From Haloquadratum walsbyi J07HQW2 (GTDB lineage Archaea > Halobacteriota > Halobacteria > Halobacteriales > Haloferacaceae): a stretch of DNA of 35,070 nt. Numbering within the stretch: the stretch's first letter is position 1; every line of letters starts with the position of its first letter. Under the pieces are notes generated by a model. The model did no database searches. It worked only from the letters and a program-made list of their open reading frames with translations, and was not told the origin of the DNA. Shown here one piece after another: positions 8,017 to 30,937 of this stretch. The translations under genes were made by a program, and so were the position numbers. The stretch is from the NCBI RefSeq assembly GCF_000415985.1, contig NZ_KE356561.1:516956-552025 (forward strand), read 5' to 3'.

Positions 8017-8288
8017 TTATTCTCCGCCGACTGTCGACGTGGTTTCGTGCTTCACTGGTAACTCACGTTCATCAAGAACCGCAGCAATCTCCGGAGCGGT
8101 GAGGCTTCCGTGTTCTTCATCTGCATCAAGCAACCGTTGCAGTCACCACGCCCGTATGCCTTCACACCACACATGTTCAGATAATATCTCGCAGCTGCAT
8201 CGAGTGCTTTGCTCCGGGCTTGCTCATCGGTTGCTTCACACAGACTCTCCCAGAGTTGCTCCCAGTCATCGGTTGATTTAATCCTCAT
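8017..8288 (-). pseudogene. Frameshifted small haloarchaeal gene (copy 1)
   Basis: From the ATG at 8288 the frame gives MRIKSTDDWEQLWESLCEAT... to ...KAYGRGD, a helical sequence of about 50 residues. Conceptual continuation in the next frame gives QRLLDADEEHGSLTAPEIAAVLDERELPVKHETTSTVGGE and a TAA at 8017-8019. A diverged copy at 16983-17215 has one extra C at the corresponding point (between 8141 and 8142 here), so a single-base deletion broke this gene. The second half has helix-turn-helix-like composition (LTAPEIAAVLDE), suggesting a small DNA-binding or antitoxin-like protein (inference). Family not identified. Confidence 0.65.
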
Positions 8289-11224: not shown

Positions 11225-11590
11225 AGATTCATTCTACAGCAGTTAGATCGGACTGTCTCTGTACACATTACTCAGCGTAGTTTGTGAATGCATTCAGATG
11301 CAGAGTGATTATCTCAATGGGAATAAAGAGGGTGTGACTTTTTTCAGCCACTCGCTATGTGTGTCTCCCTGAGTGGGGAAATGGGAGCTTCCGAGTGTCG
11401 TCTGTCAGTGATCTACACCATAACGACTCAGTGCAGAACACTGCCAGATATACCAAACCGATGAATATTACCATCATTGTCTATCTTCAGAGATTGCAAT
11501 CCTGGCAGATAACGTCACCCTGCGAGTTAAGACAGTCAAGACGACAAAAACACTGACAGCCAGCACATCCCACGCCGTTGTGCGGTTTGT
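11225..11590. repeat. Diverged 360-base repeat, copy 1 (partner 25324-25683)
   Basis: This stretch aligns over its whole length with 25324-25683 in the same orientation. Examples are the shared start GGACTGTCTCTG, a 30-base identical block (11389-11418 and 25476-25505), the shared CAGTGCAGAACACT, and a shared GAGATTGCAATC palindrome. Small indels separate the copies. On the minus strand both copies end in a Cys-rich frame (here CAGCQCFCRLDC...VICQDCNL, stop 11487-11489; there YAGCQCFYYFDY...VICRDCNL). It may be a mobile-element remnant or a decayed duplicated gene. Confidence 0.7.
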
Positions 11591-11917
11591 GTGTTTTTGC
11601 TTGTTGTTCCATACACATAGTAACATAATGTGCATACTGGAGGGGTAAAATATCGGATCCTAAACACACTGACGCGGATCTGTAGCTATCACTATTGAGA
11701 ATAGAAGCTGTCCAGGAGGGCAAATATAACCTCCCAGACTGATCCTATGTTTTCTGACCGCAGTTATGAATGATACAAATTGTCTAGAATCACATGACGA
11801 CCCGCTCACAGTTGATATGACCATATCGACTTGAGTTGGTCGCTGTCAACAATACAGGTATTACATATTAGTTGTGAGCCTACAGCGTCACCTCCACCCC
11901 ACCCCACTATCCGCATA

Positions 11918-13821: not shown

Positions 13822-14415
13822 CTATCGCCATTTGGTATGGATTGTCACCGCTAACTGTCCCATCTGATCTAAGGTAACAGGATCTTCCGGCAGATACTCT
13901 CCATCTGAGGGTCTCACCGCCCAGAGGAGATGGCAAAACACGTTCGCATCTCGAATTTTTAGAAGATACCCTGGTCCTACACCATTCTCACCATCCCATG
14001 AATACAGCTCACTTGCAACTCCAACGTTGAGTTCTCGAGATTCAGCTTCCCCTACCGATGATCCTGTGAGATATTCGGGAGTGATCGGGTCATATCCGTC
14101 TGTCGCAGCAGATACATCAGGTTTTTTCCGAATATTGAACATCACAGCAACGTAACTCTCTGGAGTCGGTTTTGAAAATCCCTGCATTGCGAATGTCGCA
14201 TCAGCACCCGACCGATTCTGTTCCCAGTCACTGCCAGGGAGATCTTCGGTTGTGAGCGTAAACTTGTCGACCGGCGATTGAATCAATTGGGAGTCGTTGC
14301 CTGTTGTTGAGAACTCTCTTTGTTGCTCTGCGGATTGTGTCTCGCCCCCAGAGCACCCAGCAATTGCGACCGTCCCCGCAGTGATGAAACTAAATACCAG
14401 TTTCCTTCGCTTCAT
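13822..14415 (-). CDS. Haloarchaeal lipoprotein, unknown function
   Basis: 197 residues from the ATG at 14415. The N-terminus MKRRKLVFSFITAGTVAIAGC is a lipoprotein signal with the lipobox Cys at residue 21, so the mature protein is probably lipid-anchored on the outer face of the membrane. The mature part starts with a Ser/Gln/Glu-rich linker, then SPVDKFTLTTEDLPGSDW and a roughly 140-residue globular domain with aromatic and charged residues, ending in VTIHTKWR. No enzyme motif was recognised; a ligand-binding or adhesion-type domain is plausible. A TATA-like dtttatg-type element (about 14440-14454) stands about 30 bases upstream. The longer frame to 14514 adds residues without a signal peptide and is rejected. 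Confidence 0.75.
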   Translation of the reverse strand: MKRRKLVFSFITAGTVAIAGCSGGETQSAEQQREFSTTGNDSQLIQSPVDKFTLTTEDLPGSDWEQNRSGADATFAMQGFSKPTPESYVAVMFNIRKKPDVSAATDGYDPITPEYLTGSSVGEAESRELNVGVASELYSWDGENGVGPGYLLKIRDANVFCHLLWAVRPSDGEYLPEDPVTLDQMGQLAVTIHTKWR

Positions 14416-14654
14416 GAGTTCGACTCCGACTCCCACTCTGGGACATAAATCGACGAGTGGTGTTTTCTCACAGAGAAACATCGACAGTTGATCTTGACAT
14501 TGATGATTCATCAACAGAGCGCATCAGGGAGTCTCTCTGTCACGAGTTCTTCATCTGTCCTCGAGTTGGCATATCAAGACGCTGTGTTCATATAGGCTGA
14601 TTTTTCTTTCAGACATGACCCTTGGAGCGTTCTCTCAACAACGCCTCGGACTAA

Positions 14655-14855: not shown

Positions 14856-14904
14856 TGATGATGAAACAGAGGAGCGACCCTCGCCCGGAGATCTATGGAG
14901 AGTC

Positions 14905-15265
14905 GAGCAGAAAACCCGCTGTTGAGGGCGGAGATGAATCCGACAGATGTCCATTAATGTGAAAATATCGTATCCTATCCGAGACGGTGTACCCGCCTAT
15001 CCCGTGTAATCGGTCAATATCGGGGCCCCTGATTGCACGCAGAGATACCCGTTCTGTGCTGACACTCAGGCTTGCAGTCAATAAAAATAACTCCGATCCT
15101 CATGCCGAGGAGAGGAGAGAAGAGGAGCAACGGCTGGGTGGCACAGCCAGTCGTGGTCCACGTCAGACGGCGGCAAAACCCCACTAACCTAGCTTAACCC
15201 AACCCAACTCAGCGCAACGGCATGGTGTCGTAGGAATCCTCGCCGACGGGCGGAGAGGATCTCAA
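14905..15265 (+). mobile_element. tnpB-less IS1341 derivative with LE, tnpB 3' tip and RE
   Basis: A left-end-like hairpin (CCCGC...GGGCGG, then ATGAATCCGACA at about 14932-14946) and a right-end hairpin (GGAATCCTCGCC...GGCGGAGAGGATCTCAA, 15233-15265) enclose about 360 bases. Within it, about 15075-15170 translates to KITPILMPRRGEKRSNGWVA, then QPVVVHVR, matching the extreme C-terminus typical of haloarchaeal TnpB (NGWLAQP-type). So this is an internally deleted copy that kept only the tnpB 3' tip and both ends. A stem GGCTG (15132-15136)/CAGCC (15144-15148) overlaps the tip. This is the region that encodes the guide RNA in characterised TnpB elements. Confidence 0.6.
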
Positions 15266-15358
15266 GAGGAAGGGGATATGCTTGTGTCGGAAATAGCCTG
15301 TTTAATCCTCCCCGGTTTTCGAGACCGTCGCGTATGATATAGGTTCACAAATGGCGTA

Positions 15359-15368
15359 GATATATGTA
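15359..15368 (+). promoter_or_regulatory. TATA-like element for the 15392 gene
   Basis: gatatatgta is centred about 29 bases before the ATG at 15392, which fits a leaderless transcript. Confidence 0.45.
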
Positions 15369-15391
15369 GCTGCATTCTCTTAGGATCATAT

Positions 15392-15916
15392 ATGAAGGAC
15401 TTGCTCAACTTTTTGAAACAACTACAGTCGATGGCGGATGATCTTGATGAGGATGACTTCACTTTCGATATTGAGACTAACGCCAGCAGTCTCTCTGACA
15501 GTGACCCGCTCGGATCCAAACCACGAAGCACACGCCACCCAACAGGACGCAGAGGAAGCCGACAATCTGGCACCAGTAACAACTCTGGAGGGGACAACTT
15601 CGAAACCAAGCGAAATATAAAGCGGCTTAACCGGCTAATCAAGAAAGCCGAAAGGAAGGATGCTGATCTCAGCGACATGTTCGAAGGTGACAACCCGACA
15701 TTAACCGAGGTAAGAACTGACGATAACGCTGAAACGGCGACAATACTTATCGACTCACCTGACGCAGAAGCCGAGAGAGGTGACGCAGTTGGGGCTGTTG
15801 AGGTAACTTACGACGATGGTGAAAATACGCTGACACATGTGTTTGAGTTCCCAGTTGAAAATATCGCTGTAGACCACAATCACTCAATGTCAACAGTCCA
15901 GATTAACAAAGAATAA
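15392..15916 (+). CDS. Possible GvpH-like (Hsp20-type) protein
   Basis: 174 residues. An N-terminal amphipathic helix (MKDLLNFLKQLQSMADDLDE) is followed by a low-complexity Ser/Arg/Gly linker (about 50-75), a short basic helix (RNIKRLNRLIKKAERKDADL) and a C-terminal beta-rich domain. That domain (TLTEVRTDDNAETATILIDS, VGAVEVTYDDGENTLTHVFEFPVENIAVD, STVQINKE) resembles the alpha-crystallin fold. The order of linker plus small Hsp20-like domain recalls haloarchaeal gas vesicle accessory protein GvpH, but no other gvp gene is in the window and the match is by pattern only. It may simply be a small-chaperone-like orphan. The start is supported by the TATA-like element at 15359-15368. Confidence 0.5.
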   Translation: MKDLLNFLKQLQSMADDLDEDDFTFDIETNASSLSDSDPLGSKPRSTRHPTGRRGSRQSGTSNNSGGDNFETKRNIKRLNRLIKKAERKDADLSDMFEGDNPTLTEVRTDDNAETATILIDSPDAEAERGDAVGAVEVTYDDGENTLTHVFEFPVENIAVDHNHSMSTVQINKE

Positions 15917-16054
15917 TACTCGGATTATATAAAGATCGGTCGCTCACAGGCTCCCGTATATTGGTGACGCGTATACTGGGATCTCGGTTATTGACTGTGA
16001 GTATCACTCATAATTAATCGATTAGAAAAAACAACAGAAATTATACAGAATCAA

Positions 16055-16666
16055 GAAGAATACCTGCGCCTTTACCCGCAGGACAGATAGATAGGATGAA
16101 TCCGACACCCGAGTAACAGTCCACGGTGTGATAGCCAGCCCGAGATGTCACCATCCATCGTTTCAAGCGGCAGGCAATCATTCTGAAAGAGACGAATCAA
16201 GCCAGAATAGAGTGATTCTGCTGAATCCTCCGATGGCGGCCTGCCCTGCCCCGCCCCGCCCCAAGCCACCAAGCAAGCAATAATCGAATCGGACCCAGTC
16301 GATAACCAGCGTATTCTCACAGAATACGACTCGACTGGACTTGACTGGACTGACTGGAGTTGACTGCTGGAAGCACAACTCACAGGAACTCCGAGTCCGT
16401 GTCCGTTGAGGTCTGCTGGACGCCCCGAGGCAAACCCAACTCTGGGAGTCCGCATATGACGGAGGATAGGAGTGGAGTCCCGGGGGCGGGGCTGGGGCTT
16501 GGCACTCCCATCGCCAGCAGTCCCACTACACTCTATCCGCCACAGTCCACGGGCATCCCTTCAGATTCTTCCTGTCTGGATGCTCGGTGGGACTGCGAAC
16601 CTGAAATCTCCAACACTCACACTCACGCTCAGGATTCCTCCGCCTAAAAGCGGAGGAGGATGTCAA
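16055..16666 (+). mobile_element. tnpB-less IS1341 derivative (MITE-like)
   Basis: It begins with an LE hairpin (GAATACCTGCGCC-tttac-CCGCAGGACAG...GGATGAATCCGAC, 16055-16106) and ends with an RE hairpin (GGATTCCTCCGC-ctaaaa-GCGGAGGAGGATGTCAA, 16632-16666), both in + orientation. The 610-base interior has no open tnpB. Near the right end, GGACTGCGAACCTGAAATC matches the 3' flank of the degenerate tnpB at 23567-25219 (reads GTANLKS against ETANPQI), so the RE-proximal tnpB tail is retained. The interior also contains GC-rich patches and short tandem-like GACTGGACTT runs (about 16325-16365). Confidence 0.65.
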
Positions 16667-16982
16667 TGATATCGCCTTCACCATCTTAAACAATGATCTA
16701 CTGTATGAGTCTTTTAGCAGGTACTATATACAATCTGACAGGTGTACCAAATTACTTAATGCATGAAACCGCTAGTTCAGCTTGATTGCTAGGGGCATAC
16801 CTCCGAATTAGCCAAGTTTGTTCTTTGGATGAGTCAGCCTCGGTTAATTCTGAGACCCGGAATCATCATTTGATTTCGTACCCCTAGCAGTCATTCTTTT
16901 TATCATCATCACATATAAAATCTCGTGATATTTGTTTTTTCAGAGTAGCAACACTATTTTTTCAATCTCTTGCACCACGTAA
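16667..16982. other. Gene-free AT-rich stretch with an inverted-repeat pair
   Basis: No gene. It contains GCTAGGGG (16788-16795) and its reverse complement CCCCTAGC (16881-16888) 85 bases apart, with a nested pair CCGAATTAGCC / GGTTAATTC, and long AT-rich tracts around 16895-16950. Confidence 0.5.
16788..16888. repeat. 101-base element with 8-base terminal inverted repeats
   Basis: Ends GCTAGGGG and CCCCTAGC are perfect inverted repeats (followed inward by caTAC and preceded by GTA), with a nested GAATTA/TAATTC pair. No target duplication is evident. It could be a tiny inverted-repeat element or a structured RNA. Confidence 0.3.
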
Positions 16983-17215
16983 TTAACATGATTGTTGATC
17001 GTGCTTACTTACCGATGAGCGTGTCTTATATTCAACGGGTAACTCCCGCTCATCGAGAATCGTAGCAATCTCGGGCGCGGTAAGTGATCCGTGCTCGTCG
17101 GCTGCATCAAGCAACCGTTGCACGTCACCACGTCGGAGTCGAACACCACCGATAGTGCGTAATCGCCCGGTTCGGACCCGTCGTACGCAAGTAGTATTTC
17201 AAATATTGCACAACA
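16983..17215 (-). pseudogene. Decayed copy 2 of the 8017-8288 small gene
   Basis: Minus-strand reading gives GVRLRRGDVQRLLDAADEHG, then SLTAPEIATILDERELPVEY, then KTRSSVSKHDQQSC and a TAA (16983-16985). This aligns with the second half of the 8017-8288 gene but keeps the frame where that copy lost a base. Upstream, a KYYLRTTG piece in another frame corresponds to ARYYLNM of copy 1, and the N-terminal half is absent. It is therefore truncated and frameshifted on the opposite side. Confidence 0.6.
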
Positions 17216-20028: not shown

Positions 20029-21410
20029 GGGTGGGGCTTGTCAGTGGCCTCTTCCTCTAACCCAAACCGACCTCGCGGCTGGTTTTGGTATGAGAGTGTA
20101 TCTCTCAACTCGGAGTCCTAGGCCCTGACTTTAGAGCGTATTGACTGACGCTCCTCCTACGAGACGGCTGATGGCCTCGTAGGAGATACAATTCTGCAAT
20201 ATTCTTAGCAGCATTATAGTCAGCGTGGTTCTGATTTCCACATCGCTGACATTCGAACTCGTCTCGATGTCGGTTATCATCTCGAACACTTCCACACTCG
20301 TTGCATCGCTTGGAAGTGTTCTTTGGGTTCACCGTATCCACGAACACGCTTTCCTCTTCAGCTTTGTACTCCACAAACTTCTTGAGCTTGCGGAAAGCCC
20401 ATATCGAATGCCAGTCAGCATATGGAAGGTCATCTCGAATACCATCGAGTTTCTCGAAGATAATGCCATCACAATCGTGTTCAACAGCTTCTCCGATAAT
20501 CCCGTTTGCCACAGAGTGCAGTACGTGCTTCACATATTCGTCTTCTCGACCGCTCACCTGCTGTAGAGTTCGGTGAGCGGATTGCTTACCACACTTTTGA
20601 AGCTTGCCACGAGTCTCCTCAAACTCTCTGCGAACGTGATTGAGTTTGCCTGCGCTGAAGAAGCGAGCCGTGCTGGTGACGGCGATTTGGTTGACTCCGA
20701 GGTCAACACCCAGAACCGTTCCGTTCTGCGTCGTTGCCTCTGGTTCAGGCTTCTTCTTTCGATAACCAAGATGAATGTACCACTCGCCGTCTCTGTGGTG
20801 TAGCGTGGTTTCAGTGTACTCCCACTCATCGTCGTTCAAGTACTGGTATTGGTATCCATCCTCGTTGTTTGGAAGTGCGAGGTCTGCCCTGACACGAGAA
20901 TGGCCACCAAGTACGGTGAGAGACACCTGCTCTTTCTCAGGAAACACGGTGAGCGTTCGTCTATCATACGTGATAGACTTCGAGGTGAAGTGTGGTTGTG
21001 TTGCTTTCTTGCCCTTTTTTCGTCGTTCGATGCAGCTTTGGATGCTACTGGCGACCTCGTGACAGGCAAGAATGGAGTGCTGACTCCCCAAATTAGTCTC
21101 TTCCTCTACTGTGCCTTTCGCTACTTTTCTGACACCAGACTGAGAGTGTTCGTTCTCCCACGCAAGGTTGGATGCAATGTTGCACCCGTCGAGCCACTCT
21201 TCGACAGTCGCTTGGAGTAGCTCATGGTCTTTTTGAGAGAGTCCGTCGAGTCGTGTAATAGCAGTTCGACGGTGGTACTCATCATCTAATGCCATCGTAA
21301 TTTCATAGAAGTACCACTAATTGTTGAAACCTTGGTTGTTTCCGTACTGGTAGACGGTTTCCTCCCCTCCCTACTCTCTCGGCTTCGCCTCGTTCCTTGA
21401 GGAAGGGGAC
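19985..21410 (-). mobile_element. IS1341-type element (tnpB only), apparently complete
   Basis: The right end lies at 19985-20036, with stem CCCCACCCT/AGGGTGGGG. The left end lies at about 21364-21409 (CCCCTCCCTACT...GAGGAAGGGG); both ends share CCCC(A/T)CCCTACT. The only gene is an intact tnpB, with no tnpA, as in IS1341-type elements of the IS200/IS605 family. The left boundary is approximate. It inserted into the 3' end of the gene at 19711. Confidence 0.7.
20105..21295 (-). CDS. tnpB: TnpB RNA-guided nuclease (IS200/IS605 OrfB), intact
   Basis: 396 residues with the full domain order. An N-terminal helical region (1-110) is followed by a beta-rich region to about 180. The RuvC-like nuclease has Asp198 in LGVDLGVN, Glu281 in IIFEKLDGIR and Asp359 in NHADYNAAKNIA. 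A zinc ribbon sits between RuvC-II and III (Cys331, Cys334, Cys349, Cys352). All three catalytic acids and all four Cys are present, so it could be active. Characterised TnpB proteins cut DNA using an omega (re) RNA made from the tnpB 3' region and right end, here 19985 to about 20150. No TnpA is present, so the element could move only in trans. The start is the ATG at 21295. Its subgroup differs from the other, degenerate tnpB copies in the window. Confidence 0.9.
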   Translation of the reverse strand: MALDDEYHRRTAITRLDGLSQKDHELLQATVEEWLDGCNIASNLAWENEHSQSGVRKVAKGTVEEETNLGSQHSILACHEVASSIQSCIERRKKGKKATQPHFTSKSITYDRRTLTVFPEKEQVSLTVLGGHSRVRADLALPNNEDGYQYQYLNDDEWEYTETTLHHRDGEWYIHLGYRKKKPEPEATTQNGTVLGVDLGVNQIAVTSTARFFSAGKLNHVRREFEETRGKLQKCGKQSAHRTLQQVSGREDEYVKHVLHSVANGIIGEAVEHDCDGIIFEKLDGIRDDLPYADWHSIWAFRKLKKFVEYKAEEESVFVDTVNPKNTSKRCNECGSVRDDNRHRDEFECQRCGNQNHADYNAAKNIAELYLLRGHQPSRRRSVSQYALKSGPRTPS

Positions 21411-22274: not shown

Positions 22275-22477
22275 TGTGCTTGGTAAGTTACTCTCTTGCC
22301 ATTCATGTAATATTTTTGTAACGTCAACGTAACAAGGTAGTTTCACTACTGAAAAATACAGCTTCCAACGGTGATATCAATATAAACGTGGCGTCTACTA
22401 AACTCTATCACAAATCAAGACGGTCCGTTGTCATCCAGACGACGGCTTTCCTATTTCCCGTGCGACTGCGCAACAGT

Positions 22478-22517
22478 TTGACATCCTCCTCCGCCTAAAG
22501 TTGGAGGAGGATATCAA
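22478..22517. mobile_element. Solo IS1341-type right-end hairpin
   Basis: TTGACATCCTCCTCC, a 10-base loop and GGAGGAGGATATCAA make a nearly perfect 15-base stem. The same motif forms the right ends at 16632-16666, 23567-23602 and 30897-30937. No tnpB or left end is near it, so it is an isolated end, possibly left after excision or deletion. It lies in the 384-base gap between the 22274 gene and the ferredoxin gene, which otherwise shows no gene. Confidence 0.55.
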
Positions 22518-23566: not shown

Positions 23567-25219
23567 TTGACATCCTCCTCCGCGTAACTGCGGAGGAATC
23601 CCACGGCACCACACCGCTGCACTCCGCTGGATTGGGATCTGAGGGTTTGCAGTCTCCCACTTCAGTTGATCCTGCGGTTGGAATCCACTGGACAAGTCAT
23701 GGAGGGAGACGTCAGGCTGTGCCAACCAGCCCAGCCGGGACTCCTCTCTTCACCCACACTGGGCGGAGACTTGGAGTTACGTTGGTTTACGTCGAGGCGG
23801 ATGTTCTCCGCCCCCGCCCCATGTCCATTCACGTCCGCGTTGAACGCCGCATCGCATTCCTCGCAGACGTACAACCCGGCGTTCAACACGTCACGTCACG
23901 CTGACTCTCGTCTTCTCTCCCTCTCCCACACATACAACACGTCATGTCTTGCTCGTGTCGTGTCACGCTCAGATACGTCCATAACCTCGATACCGATACC
24001 CTCGACCTTCGCCTTGTACGTGAGACTCGATCTGAAGCGGTCAAACGCCCAGCCATGTAGATCAAATCAAGGTTCCTGTGCCGACCCCAGTTCTTCGCTT
24101 GGCCATCTTCATCCTCACGAGCGCTCTCTAAATCGCCGACGTTGAGACGACCAACACCCCACCCCGCTCGACACAGTTCTCGACGATATGCTTAGCGAGA
24201 CCATCGAAGAAGTGGGTGCGGCGCTCCGACCACGTCACGTCTTGTGTAGCCGAGTCGCTTTGGGACCGCCTGACTCGTCGCAGCTGGCGATCTCTGTCGG
24301 AAAGTAGTATCCGTACCTATCCTGTGTGAGGCGATTGCCGGGGTAGAGGTCAGCTTCCTCGGTACTGTACGCAACTGCCGCGAACTGACAGATGCCGAAC
24401 CGAGGTCAACACCAGCCGACTCGGGACCGGGAGCATCGGGTGTCTCGACTTCATGTTTACACACTCACTGCAGTGCAGCTCCCACCAGCCCAGCCCATTG
24501 CCTCGTCATAGACGGCACGAACCTGCTGAAGGTTCTCGATGGTGATGCCGGGGCGTGTCTCGTATTCACAGAAGATGTACTCCCACGATCGTGGGTATTC
24601 GGTGTGATTTGCGCCCTTCGAGAGGCGTATTCGATTGGTTGTGGTATCGTGACGGATACCTTTCTGCTTCCACGTCACCGTCGATCGCGGGTGTTCTTCA
24701 TGGACGCGGTTGCCCTCGTCTCGTTGTCGGAGTAGTTTTGCTTGCGGTAGCCGGGCGGATTGTCCCTGTCGTCATCGGAGCCGTCCCACGACACGAGTTC
24801 GAGTTGAAGGCTTCAGCGAGTGCTTCCAGAACGCGCTGACTGGACTGTGAGTGGAGTCGTTTGTACGTGGTGTGGGCTGGGGCTTCAACTCGCGTTTCAG
24901 GACCGAATCATCAGGAATCTCGCCTGTCTCGTCCCAGACTTCTCTGGAGTGGTAGTTTGCGACGTTCCAGAGTTTCGCTGCACTCCATCCATGCCGGTCG
25001 AGCATCTCAGCCACTTGTGAGTGGGTGAGGATTGTCGCTCGGCAAGTACGGTGGATGTGCATTCGTGGAAGGCTCCATAATGAGTTATCGAACAGTATAT
25101 GCTACAGAGTCGGATTTCGAACGGAGAATATCCAGGAGTGTCGTCGGCAGTGGCTCGTGGGAACGTTGTCGGATTCATCCTGTCCTGCGCCTGAACTGAA
25201 GGCGCAGGTATTCTCCTCG
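23567..25219 (-). mobile_element. Degenerate IS1341-type element with both ends
   Basis: The right end is at 23567-23602 (TTGACATCCTCCTCCGC-gtaact-GCGGAGGAATCCC) and the left end at 25168-25219 (GTCGGATTCATCCTGTCCTGCGCC...GGCGCAGG...TTCTCCTCGT). The 1.65 kb size matches a full tnpB-only element. It shows what the three shorter LE-RE elements in the window derive from. Confidence 0.7.
23680..25062 (-). pseudogene. Degenerate TnpB with many frameshifts
   Basis: Starting at 25062 (MHIHRTCRATILTHSQVAEM, then SAAKLWNVANYHSREVWDET), TnpB homology continues in shifting frames: LHSQSSQRVLEALAEAFNSN, DRDNPPGYRKQNYSDNE, HPRSTVTWKQKGIRHDTTTN, EYIFCEYETRPGITIENLQQ, a RuvC-I-like SAGVDLGSA and LYPGNRLTQDRYYFP, then HDTSKTCCVCGREGEDESQR (zinc ribbon) and a C-terminal LAQPDVSLHDL region. 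There are many frameshifts and stops, so it is inactive. Same subgroup as the 12259-13349 pseudogene, different from the intact 20105 TnpB. Confidence 0.8.
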
Positions 25220-25323
25220 TCTCTGTATAATGACAGTGTCGAAACGAAGGCATAGAACTGAGGACTGTGTGAGGGAACAGCCGGTGCTATAGCTCAATTC
25301 GAAAAGTAGATATCCTGCATTAT

Positions 25324-25683
25324 GATGGGATTCATTCGACACACTTCGATCGGACTGTCTCTGCACAGATCACTTCCCGCAATTGTGTGAGTGATCGTCT
25401 CAGGGGGAACAAACCAGGTGTGACTTGTTCTCTCTCAGCCACCCGTCATGTGCCCCCTGAGTGGGAAATGGGAGTTTCCGAGTGTCGTCTGTCAGTGATC
25501 TACACTGGTCATAACTCAGTGCAGAACACTAATAAATATATTACACCGATGAATCTTATAATTATTGCCTAGTCTCAGAGATTGCAATCTCGGCAAATAA
25601 CGTCACTCTGCAAGCTTAGATAGTCAAAGTAATAAAAGCACTGACAGCCAGCATACGTCGCGCTGTTGTGTGCTTTGAGTATC
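25324..25683. repeat. Diverged 360-base repeat, copy 2 (partner 11225-11590)
   Basis: Same-orientation partner of 11225-11590; see that entry for matched blocks. It lies between the left end of the degenerate IS and the helicase stop. In the + frame the copies share NSVQNT and PMN (25516-25560 here); in the minus frame they share AGCQCF and VICxDCNL. Substitutions are not concentrated at third codon positions in the minus frame, so present-day coding is unproven. Confidence 0.7.
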
Positions 25684-30422: not shown

Positions 30423-30937
30423 GAGAATCCCTGCGTCTGTCGGCGCAGGACAGGATAGGACAGGATAGGCTGAATCCATTATCAGCACAGCTAAAAAACT
30501 AGATAACGTGACGTGTGTTGGAACAAGGTCAGGTCGGAACGGAGCGATTCCGACCGACTTTCGGAGGCGGTCTCTCCGCCAGTAATGAGACAGTATCCGA
30601 AACGCTCACCGATGGATCACGCAGGCGAGAAGCCTGTGTCTGTGTCTGTGTCCGTGTCAGTGAGTTGAGTTGAGAACACAACCGATACCTCTACCTCCGA
30701 GTCTGCCGACGTGTCACTGACTCGCTGTTGGCAAACCAAACATAACAGCAGTGAATCAGTGACACTGAGGATACAAGAGGAGTAACGGTAGTCTGGCACT
30801 GCCAGTCAGCCAGCCACTGATCACGATGGCTGGGTGAGATGCGTTCCCGTAAAGTGACAGCAACCATGGTTGCAAACCTGCAATTCCTAACGCTCGGGAT
30901 TCCTCCCGTCTTCAGTTCAGGCGGAGGAGGATGTCAA
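30423..30937 (+). mobile_element. tnpB-less IS1341 derivative (MITE-like)
   Basis: Left end GAGAATCCCTGCGTCTGTCGGCGCAG followed by tandem GGACAGGATA units and GGCTGAATCC (30423-30478); right end GGATTCCTCCCGTC...GGCGGAGGAGGATGTCAA (30897-30937). Both are in + orientation and match the ends of the 23567-25219 element. The roughly 430-base interior shows no tnpB motif and differs from the 16055-16666 interior. It includes a (GTCTGT)-type simple repeat near 30635-30660 and inverted GCTGG/CCAGC patches near 30805-30830. Deletion derivative or chimeric MITE. Confidence 0.6.

Follow-up and report, generated by a model that had tools for sequence, protein, structure and literature searches.

PATEs (palindrome-associated transposable elements) are small hitch-hiking transposons of haloarchaea, and they have reportedly been mentioned in bacterial work on TnpB, from which CRISPR Cas12 descends. 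The PATEs of Haloquadratum walsbyi have been described as mobile elements that contain no protein gene, bear IS605-related subterminal palindromes, leave no target duplication and reach a high copy number (PMC3119063). The Rfam family RF02656 (sot0042) has been identified with haloarchaeal omega-RNAs (PMC12558985). We analyzed a stretch of 35,070 nucleotides, subsequently called the window, from the single-contig genome (3.59 Mb) of H. walsbyi J07HQW2, in which the own-genome copies given below were counted. Two neighboring elements of the window, named element 1 and element 2, carry no tnpB. The best explanation for them, to which we assign a probability of roughly two in three, is that they are PATEs moved in trans and that their omega scaffold was kept since a TnpB encoded elsewhere could use the transcript.

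Anatomy and boundaries of the elements

An earlier note on this DNA had reported two short elements with a left end, a tnpB-3′-like segment and a right-end hairpin but without tnpB. Both are present (Table 1): the right ends given there, 15265 and 16666, are correct, whereas the left ends lie further outward, at 14898 instead of 14905 and at 16046 instead of 16055, and the elements measure 368 bp (element 1) and 621 bp (element 2). The boundaries of element 2 were set by aligning five near-full-length copies together with their flanks; the left boundary follows directly after TTATA and the right end is the TCAA at 16666. Across the copies TTATA or a one-base variant of it is constant where the bases downstream vary, and a constant TTATA next to unrelated bases upstream is as expected of a target motif. 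TTATA likewise flanks tnpB elements of this genome directly on the left. The CTATG of element 1 has TTATG or TTTAC as its counterpart in the two relatives of this element (three-copy alignment).

The left and right ends of both elements are common to tnpB elements of the same genome and bear IS605-type near-terminal palindromes; terminal inverted repeats are absent. Neither tnpA nor tnpB nor a Pfam match was found inside elements 1 and 2 by Pfam search and tblastn. A protein gene in element 2 (16360-16647) was considered and rejected, as the frame has no Pfam match and indels between the copies have lengths not divisible by three. The genome contains 11 Y1_Tnp matches, none of them within the window elements, which so lack the Y1 TnpA of an autonomous IS200/IS605 element. 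The element 2 family is multicopy and mobile; element 1 has three copies only. Under the published definition elements 1 and 2 are PATEs.

The omega portion makes up between a third and a half of each element, on its 3′ side. In element 2 it is built, in this order, from the stem ACUCC/GGAGU, an extra long hairpin, the UGGCAC hairpin and the GGAUUC hairpin. The retained tails are unlike each other, as had been noticed before: element 2 has an additional long hairpin of 16 pairs, and element 1 is without the third omega hairpin. A search of the genome for further tnpB-less copies, which the earlier note had suggested, yielded the family copies described below and element 3, overlooked at the time.

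Other repeats surround these elements. Just left of element 1, positions 14200-14510 match G016, a congener, at 95% and another place in the own genome at 91% and represent another mobile sequence. To the right of element 2 a repeat (16713-17132) recurs at 81–86% at five or more further genomic sites, and 8054-8141 resembles 17035-17122. Direct repeats ∼14.1 kb apart (11240-11592 and 25342-25680) are 77–98% identical. A solo near-perfect inverted repeat at 22476-22517 has right-end sequence on both sides (TTGACATCCTCCTCC..GGAGGAGGATATCAA) and can be compared with terminal-only Haloquadratum PATEs.

Table 1. Features of the window discussed in the text, with positions counted from its first letter
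Feature	Position	Strand	Basis
Element 1: tnpB-free IS200/IS605-type element (PATE), one of three genome copies	14898..15265	+	copy alignment
Element 1, left flanking target/TAM-like motif CTATG	14893..14897	+	three-copy alignment
Element 1, omega-RNA (sot0042-like) region including tnpB 3′ tail	15085..15256	+	RF02656 and model R1 matches
Element 1, right-end hairpin, terminating in TCTCAA	15231..15265	+	sequence, alignment
Element 2: tnpB-free PATE, multicopy family	16046..16666	+	alignment of copies
Element 2, left flanking target/TAM-like motif TTATA	16041..16045	+	alignment of copies with flanks
Element 2, left-end hairpin (CCTGCGCCTTTACCCGCAGG)	16063..16082	+	alignment
Element 2, 5′ module replacing tnpB: non-coding, with moderate structure and lower conservation	16083..16381	+	
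Element 2, extended omega-RNA-like module	16382..16631	+	fold, covariation, covariance model
Element 2, right-end hairpin, terminating in GGATGTCAA	16632..16666	+	sequence, alignment
Element 3: TTATA, left-end hairpin, no tnpB, right-end hairpin terminating in TCAA	30408..30937	+	R1 at 30757-30896, E = 0.004
tnpB element whose tnpB is frame-broken, with the same ends and a TTATA flank; comparison copy of the earlier note	23567..25231	-	
Omega-RNA of the frame-broken tnpB element	23576..23782	-	RF02656, 31.5 bits

Relationship of the 3′ part to TnpB omega-RNA

The resemblance of the retained segment to a tnpB tail was borne out by covariance models. RF02656 matches element 1 end to end over the full model length with 27.4 bits (E = 4.7e-5 for the genome), a score that, like the 14.0 bits of the element 2 relative L005, does not reach the curated 88 bits. 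At the gathering threshold Rfam gave no match on the window, and window element 2 is not among the RF02656 matches listed. A further covariance model, R1, was built from 16 tnpB-element RNAs including that of the frame-broken copy in the window; the right-end hairpin was removed from it, so shared transposon ends cannot cause a match. R1 matches element 1 (15085-15232) with E = 2e-12, the two other members of its family with 8e-14 and 1e-22, most relatives of element 2 down to E = 3e-11 and 7 of 7 plasmid loci with 2e-9 to 9e-14. Window element 2 taken alone (16434-16619) gives a weak E = 0.43, so the omega case for this copy is carried by its family relatives. Element 1, element 2 relatives and the plasmid copies thus have detectable homology to tnpB-linked omega-RNAs beyond the hairpin of the right end. 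The unpaired conserved segments UGGCAC and ACUGCAAACC, located deep within the element, are common to tnpB-linked omega-RNAs. Similar RNAs with a tnpB-type 3′ end occur at two loci of G016 (L143 1034-1260 and L139 982-1172), and L143 joins this 3′ end with the extra hairpin of element 2. Judged by sequence comparison, the retained 3′ part is a homologue of the TnpB omega (guide) RNA.

With a score of 21.7 bits or more, RF02656 has 39 matches in the whole genome, 18 of which lack a PF01385 match close upstream. Some of these 18 retain tnpB fragments and roughly ten are without a detectable tnpB of their own.

Conservation of the fold in the element 2 family

A common fold, which the earlier note had proposed to look for, was found as a covarying + strand fold in 40 copies of the element 2 family. 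For the pairing test these copies were aligned without reference to structure: 92.8% of the cells were paired, compared with 38–45% when the partners were slid, and 18 pairs had changed on both sides, compared with 10.6 ± 2.2 in shuffles. As the shuffle control leaves relatedness in, the slid control and the pair-count measure carry more weight. The consensus fold energy of the 3′ module in 43 copies was -121.6 kcal/mol, compared with -75.9 ± 5.4 kcal/mol for shuffled columns. G-U exceeded A-C at paired sites by 110:48 and this excess was reversed (241:295) after sliding, so one strand, the + strand, is the folding strand. Identity between genomes was 78% for the omega module versus 66% for the 5′ module, with structure z values of -7.8 and -3.5, respectively. 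In the element 2 family selection on the + strand maintains the omega fold, and in this one sense, a scaffold conserved with covariation, the analysis supports the idea of RNA loci outliving their nuclease.

Internal conservation of this kind could also reflect a need at the DNA level, if hairpins of the + strand helped or protected the single-stranded DNA during single-strand transposition and no RNA acted at all. Such transposition uses one strand as well, so the G-U bias cannot separate an RNA from top-strand single-stranded DNA, and the 5′ module, which is likewise weakly structured, favors this explanation. However, the conserved module begins ∼280 nt from the right end, it is better conserved than the 5′ module, and its unpaired motifs are those of tnpB-linked omega-RNAs. 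It also counts against a DNA-level need that TnpA of IS608-type elements requires the end hairpins only. We regard this explanation as unlikely and consider a conserved omega scaffold, usable by a TnpB in trans, the better account.

Families, spread and mobility

Five near-full-length copies of element 2 with 84–89% identity are found in the own genome, so the window elements are not due to chance, together with about a dozen further divergent or partial copies, among them some with 65–76% identity. In one copy of element 2 (L100, G000:C1:1003000-1009000), positions 274 and 298 are separated by ∼3.3 kb of other sequence. The congeners G015 (Haloquadratum walsbyi C23T) and G016 contain 34 and 36 matches, and the best G016 copies are 75–76% identical to window element 2. 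The two relatives of element 1 in the genome share its anatomy at 78% and 71% identity. A same-family tnpB was found upstream in 0 of 46 fetched congener copies of element 2; the sole tnpB match among these loci (L154) lies >1 kb away and is of another type.

Plasmids of Halostagnicola, Halorubrum, Haloplanus and Natribaculum carry complete relatives of element 2 (450–523 bp) that run from a TTATA-like motif to TCAA; plasmids of Halomicrobium and Halobacterium contain the omega module as well. Plasmid elements of the same anatomy are found in Natrialbaceae and Haloferacaceae and the omega-RNA module additionally in Haloarculaceae and Halobacteriaceae. None of the 7 fetched plasmid loci matched the TnpB set by tblastn, and halovirus and phage records searched with element 2 and a Halorubrum copy gave no match. 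The element 2 family is a tnpB-free lineage spread across several haloarchaeal families. In a maximum-likelihood tree, species-specific tnpB-free clades are fully supported, for example the five own-genome copies or L093/L095/L096, so amplification continued after tnpB loss.

Mobility is seen most clearly at L093, a relative of element 2, where the joined flanks (440 bp) can be aligned over the junction with both G015 and G016 at unchanged length and, compared with these two congeners, without target-site duplication. The insertion site looks as if it lay inside a prepilin-peptidase gene (GGADAK motif) that is broken in the own genome. The sites of L091 and L096 are less clean than that of L093, with variable intergenic length or other sequence present; for the insertion points of the two window copies no congener alignment across the junction was found. 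The recent species-specific clades and the site that is uninterrupted in two congeners support mobilisation in trans, one of the earlier proposals. That interpretation as a whole stands in its trans mobilisation and its scaffold conservation, whereas it is misleading to speak, as its title does, of TnpB elements reduced to their ends, since the elements belong to tnpB-free families (PATEs) and are not local decay products.

Another explanation would regard the elements as passive relics from which an internal deletion removed tnpB, with tails that persist solely by adjoining the right end needed for transposition. The loss of the third omega hairpin from element 1 fits this picture, as do the broken neighboring tnpB element (Table 1) and the disruption of most tnpB genes in H. 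walsbyi. Relics would, however, drift neutrally, whereas this old family still keeps the module across haloarchaeal families and its double-sided pair changes lie above those in shuffles. Passive persistence is therefore disfavored for element 2 and on the whole rather unlikely; to element 1, whose family comprises three copies only, it may still apply. Use of a maintained scaffold in trans remains our preferred reading.

Candidate partners and a possible mechanism

BLAST of the ends against the genome found no tnpA with ends matching the window elements, and those TnpBs of the sot0042 class that were inspected in it seem to be truncated or to carry frameshifts. An ORF for a TnpB of 396 aa (20105-21295, - strand) has OrfB_IS605 and Cas12f1-like TNB domains; its class is unlike the omega-RNA of the elements. 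TTATA with a guide-like flank did not recur elsewhere in the fetched loci, which points neither for nor against targeting.

If the elements are mobilised in trans, a TnpA-type (Y1) transposase made elsewhere would recognize the end hairpins and the PATE would jump. The scaffold, once transcribed and recognized, could guide a TnpB encoded elsewhere, and this TnpB would cut the empty donor site left by excision, made up of TTATA and the sequence beyond the right end. Repair after the cut would restore the element, so that a nuclease-free element would gain the retention benefit of TnpB. Tentatively, and with somewhat more doubt than confidence, we extend this to a haloarchaea-wide nuclease-free lineage with an extended omega-RNA of its own that would depend on TnpA in trans to move and on TnpB in trans for donor-site retention. 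In this analysis the extended omega-RNA was found solely in tnpB-free elements, and it may be shaped for trans use.

The RNAs might instead have been repurposed without TnpB as regulatory RNAs of host or element, like the sotRNAs reported as functional ncRNAs. In a halovirus a PATE end of ∼300 bp is strongly transcribed and a role as ncRNA has been suggested (PMC10544981). A regulatory role is at odds with the copies themselves, which lie scattered at non-conserved positions and differ in their flanks. It also finds no support in this viral PATE (HRTV-DL1), which is unmatched by R1 and for which transcription was reported antisense to ORF3, contrary, as oriented here, to the direction of an omega-RNA. 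Altogether such repurposing seems quite improbable, and the published transcription of the HRTV-DL1 PATE end is a lead only. As a member of the family the HRTV-DL1 PATE was rejected, having no R1 match. In the orientation used here (L243, OP630574 600-1090) its right end lies at about 1085 on the + strand, so an antisense transcript would run counter to an omega-RNA, barring an inverted strand in the library.

Comparison with known systems

So far PATEs have been regarded as hitch-hikers that consist of ends only; should the interior prove to be a functioning guide RNA, they would be RNA-guided parasites of TnpB. They would then offer natural test material for donor-site retention by TnpB, with many copies and guide-like flanks served by one shared nuclease. 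The families moreover provide natural omega-RNA variants that do not overlap a coding gene, which could serve structural studies. Guide-RNA loci distant from the nuclease gene are known from the stand-alone IscB omega-RNAs, which belong to another nuclease family.

With haloarchaeal omega-RNAs/sotRNAs the window elements have in common the position relative to the right end, the order of stems (ACUCC/GGAGU stem, UUGGCAC hairpin, third hairpin) and sequence motifs. They differ in having no tnpB in front, in scores under the Rfam cut-off and in the hairpins gained by element 2 and missing from element 1. IS1341-type (tnpB-only) IS200/IS605 elements share the left end, the right end and a TTATA-like flank, whereas the window elements have a non-coding 5′ module in the place of tnpB. 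From the bacterium Halanaerobium hydrogeniformans a PATE-like ends-only element has been described in which both ends and the final 58 nt of tnpB remain (PMC7290912); in contrast to the families described here, it is a single copy and was reported without an RNA or a family. Closest are the PATEs of PMC3119063, with which the window elements share the lack of a protein gene and the IS605-related subterminal palindromes, and the element 2 family also the multicopy, mobile character and, at L093, insertion without target duplication; relatives of element 2 are present in the C23T genome itself. At seven G015 loci (L153, L155, L156, L158, L159, L162 and L164) foreign sequence interrupts the loop of the right-end hairpin, comparable to the SMR-A insertions (PMC3119063). 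The connection to guide RNA was not made in that study, and we found no paper in the openly accessible literature stating that PATEs carry a conserved omega-RNA. The element type itself is thus known; the new part is a conserved, covarying relative of the omega-RNA carried by a nuclease-free lineage across haloarchaeal families.
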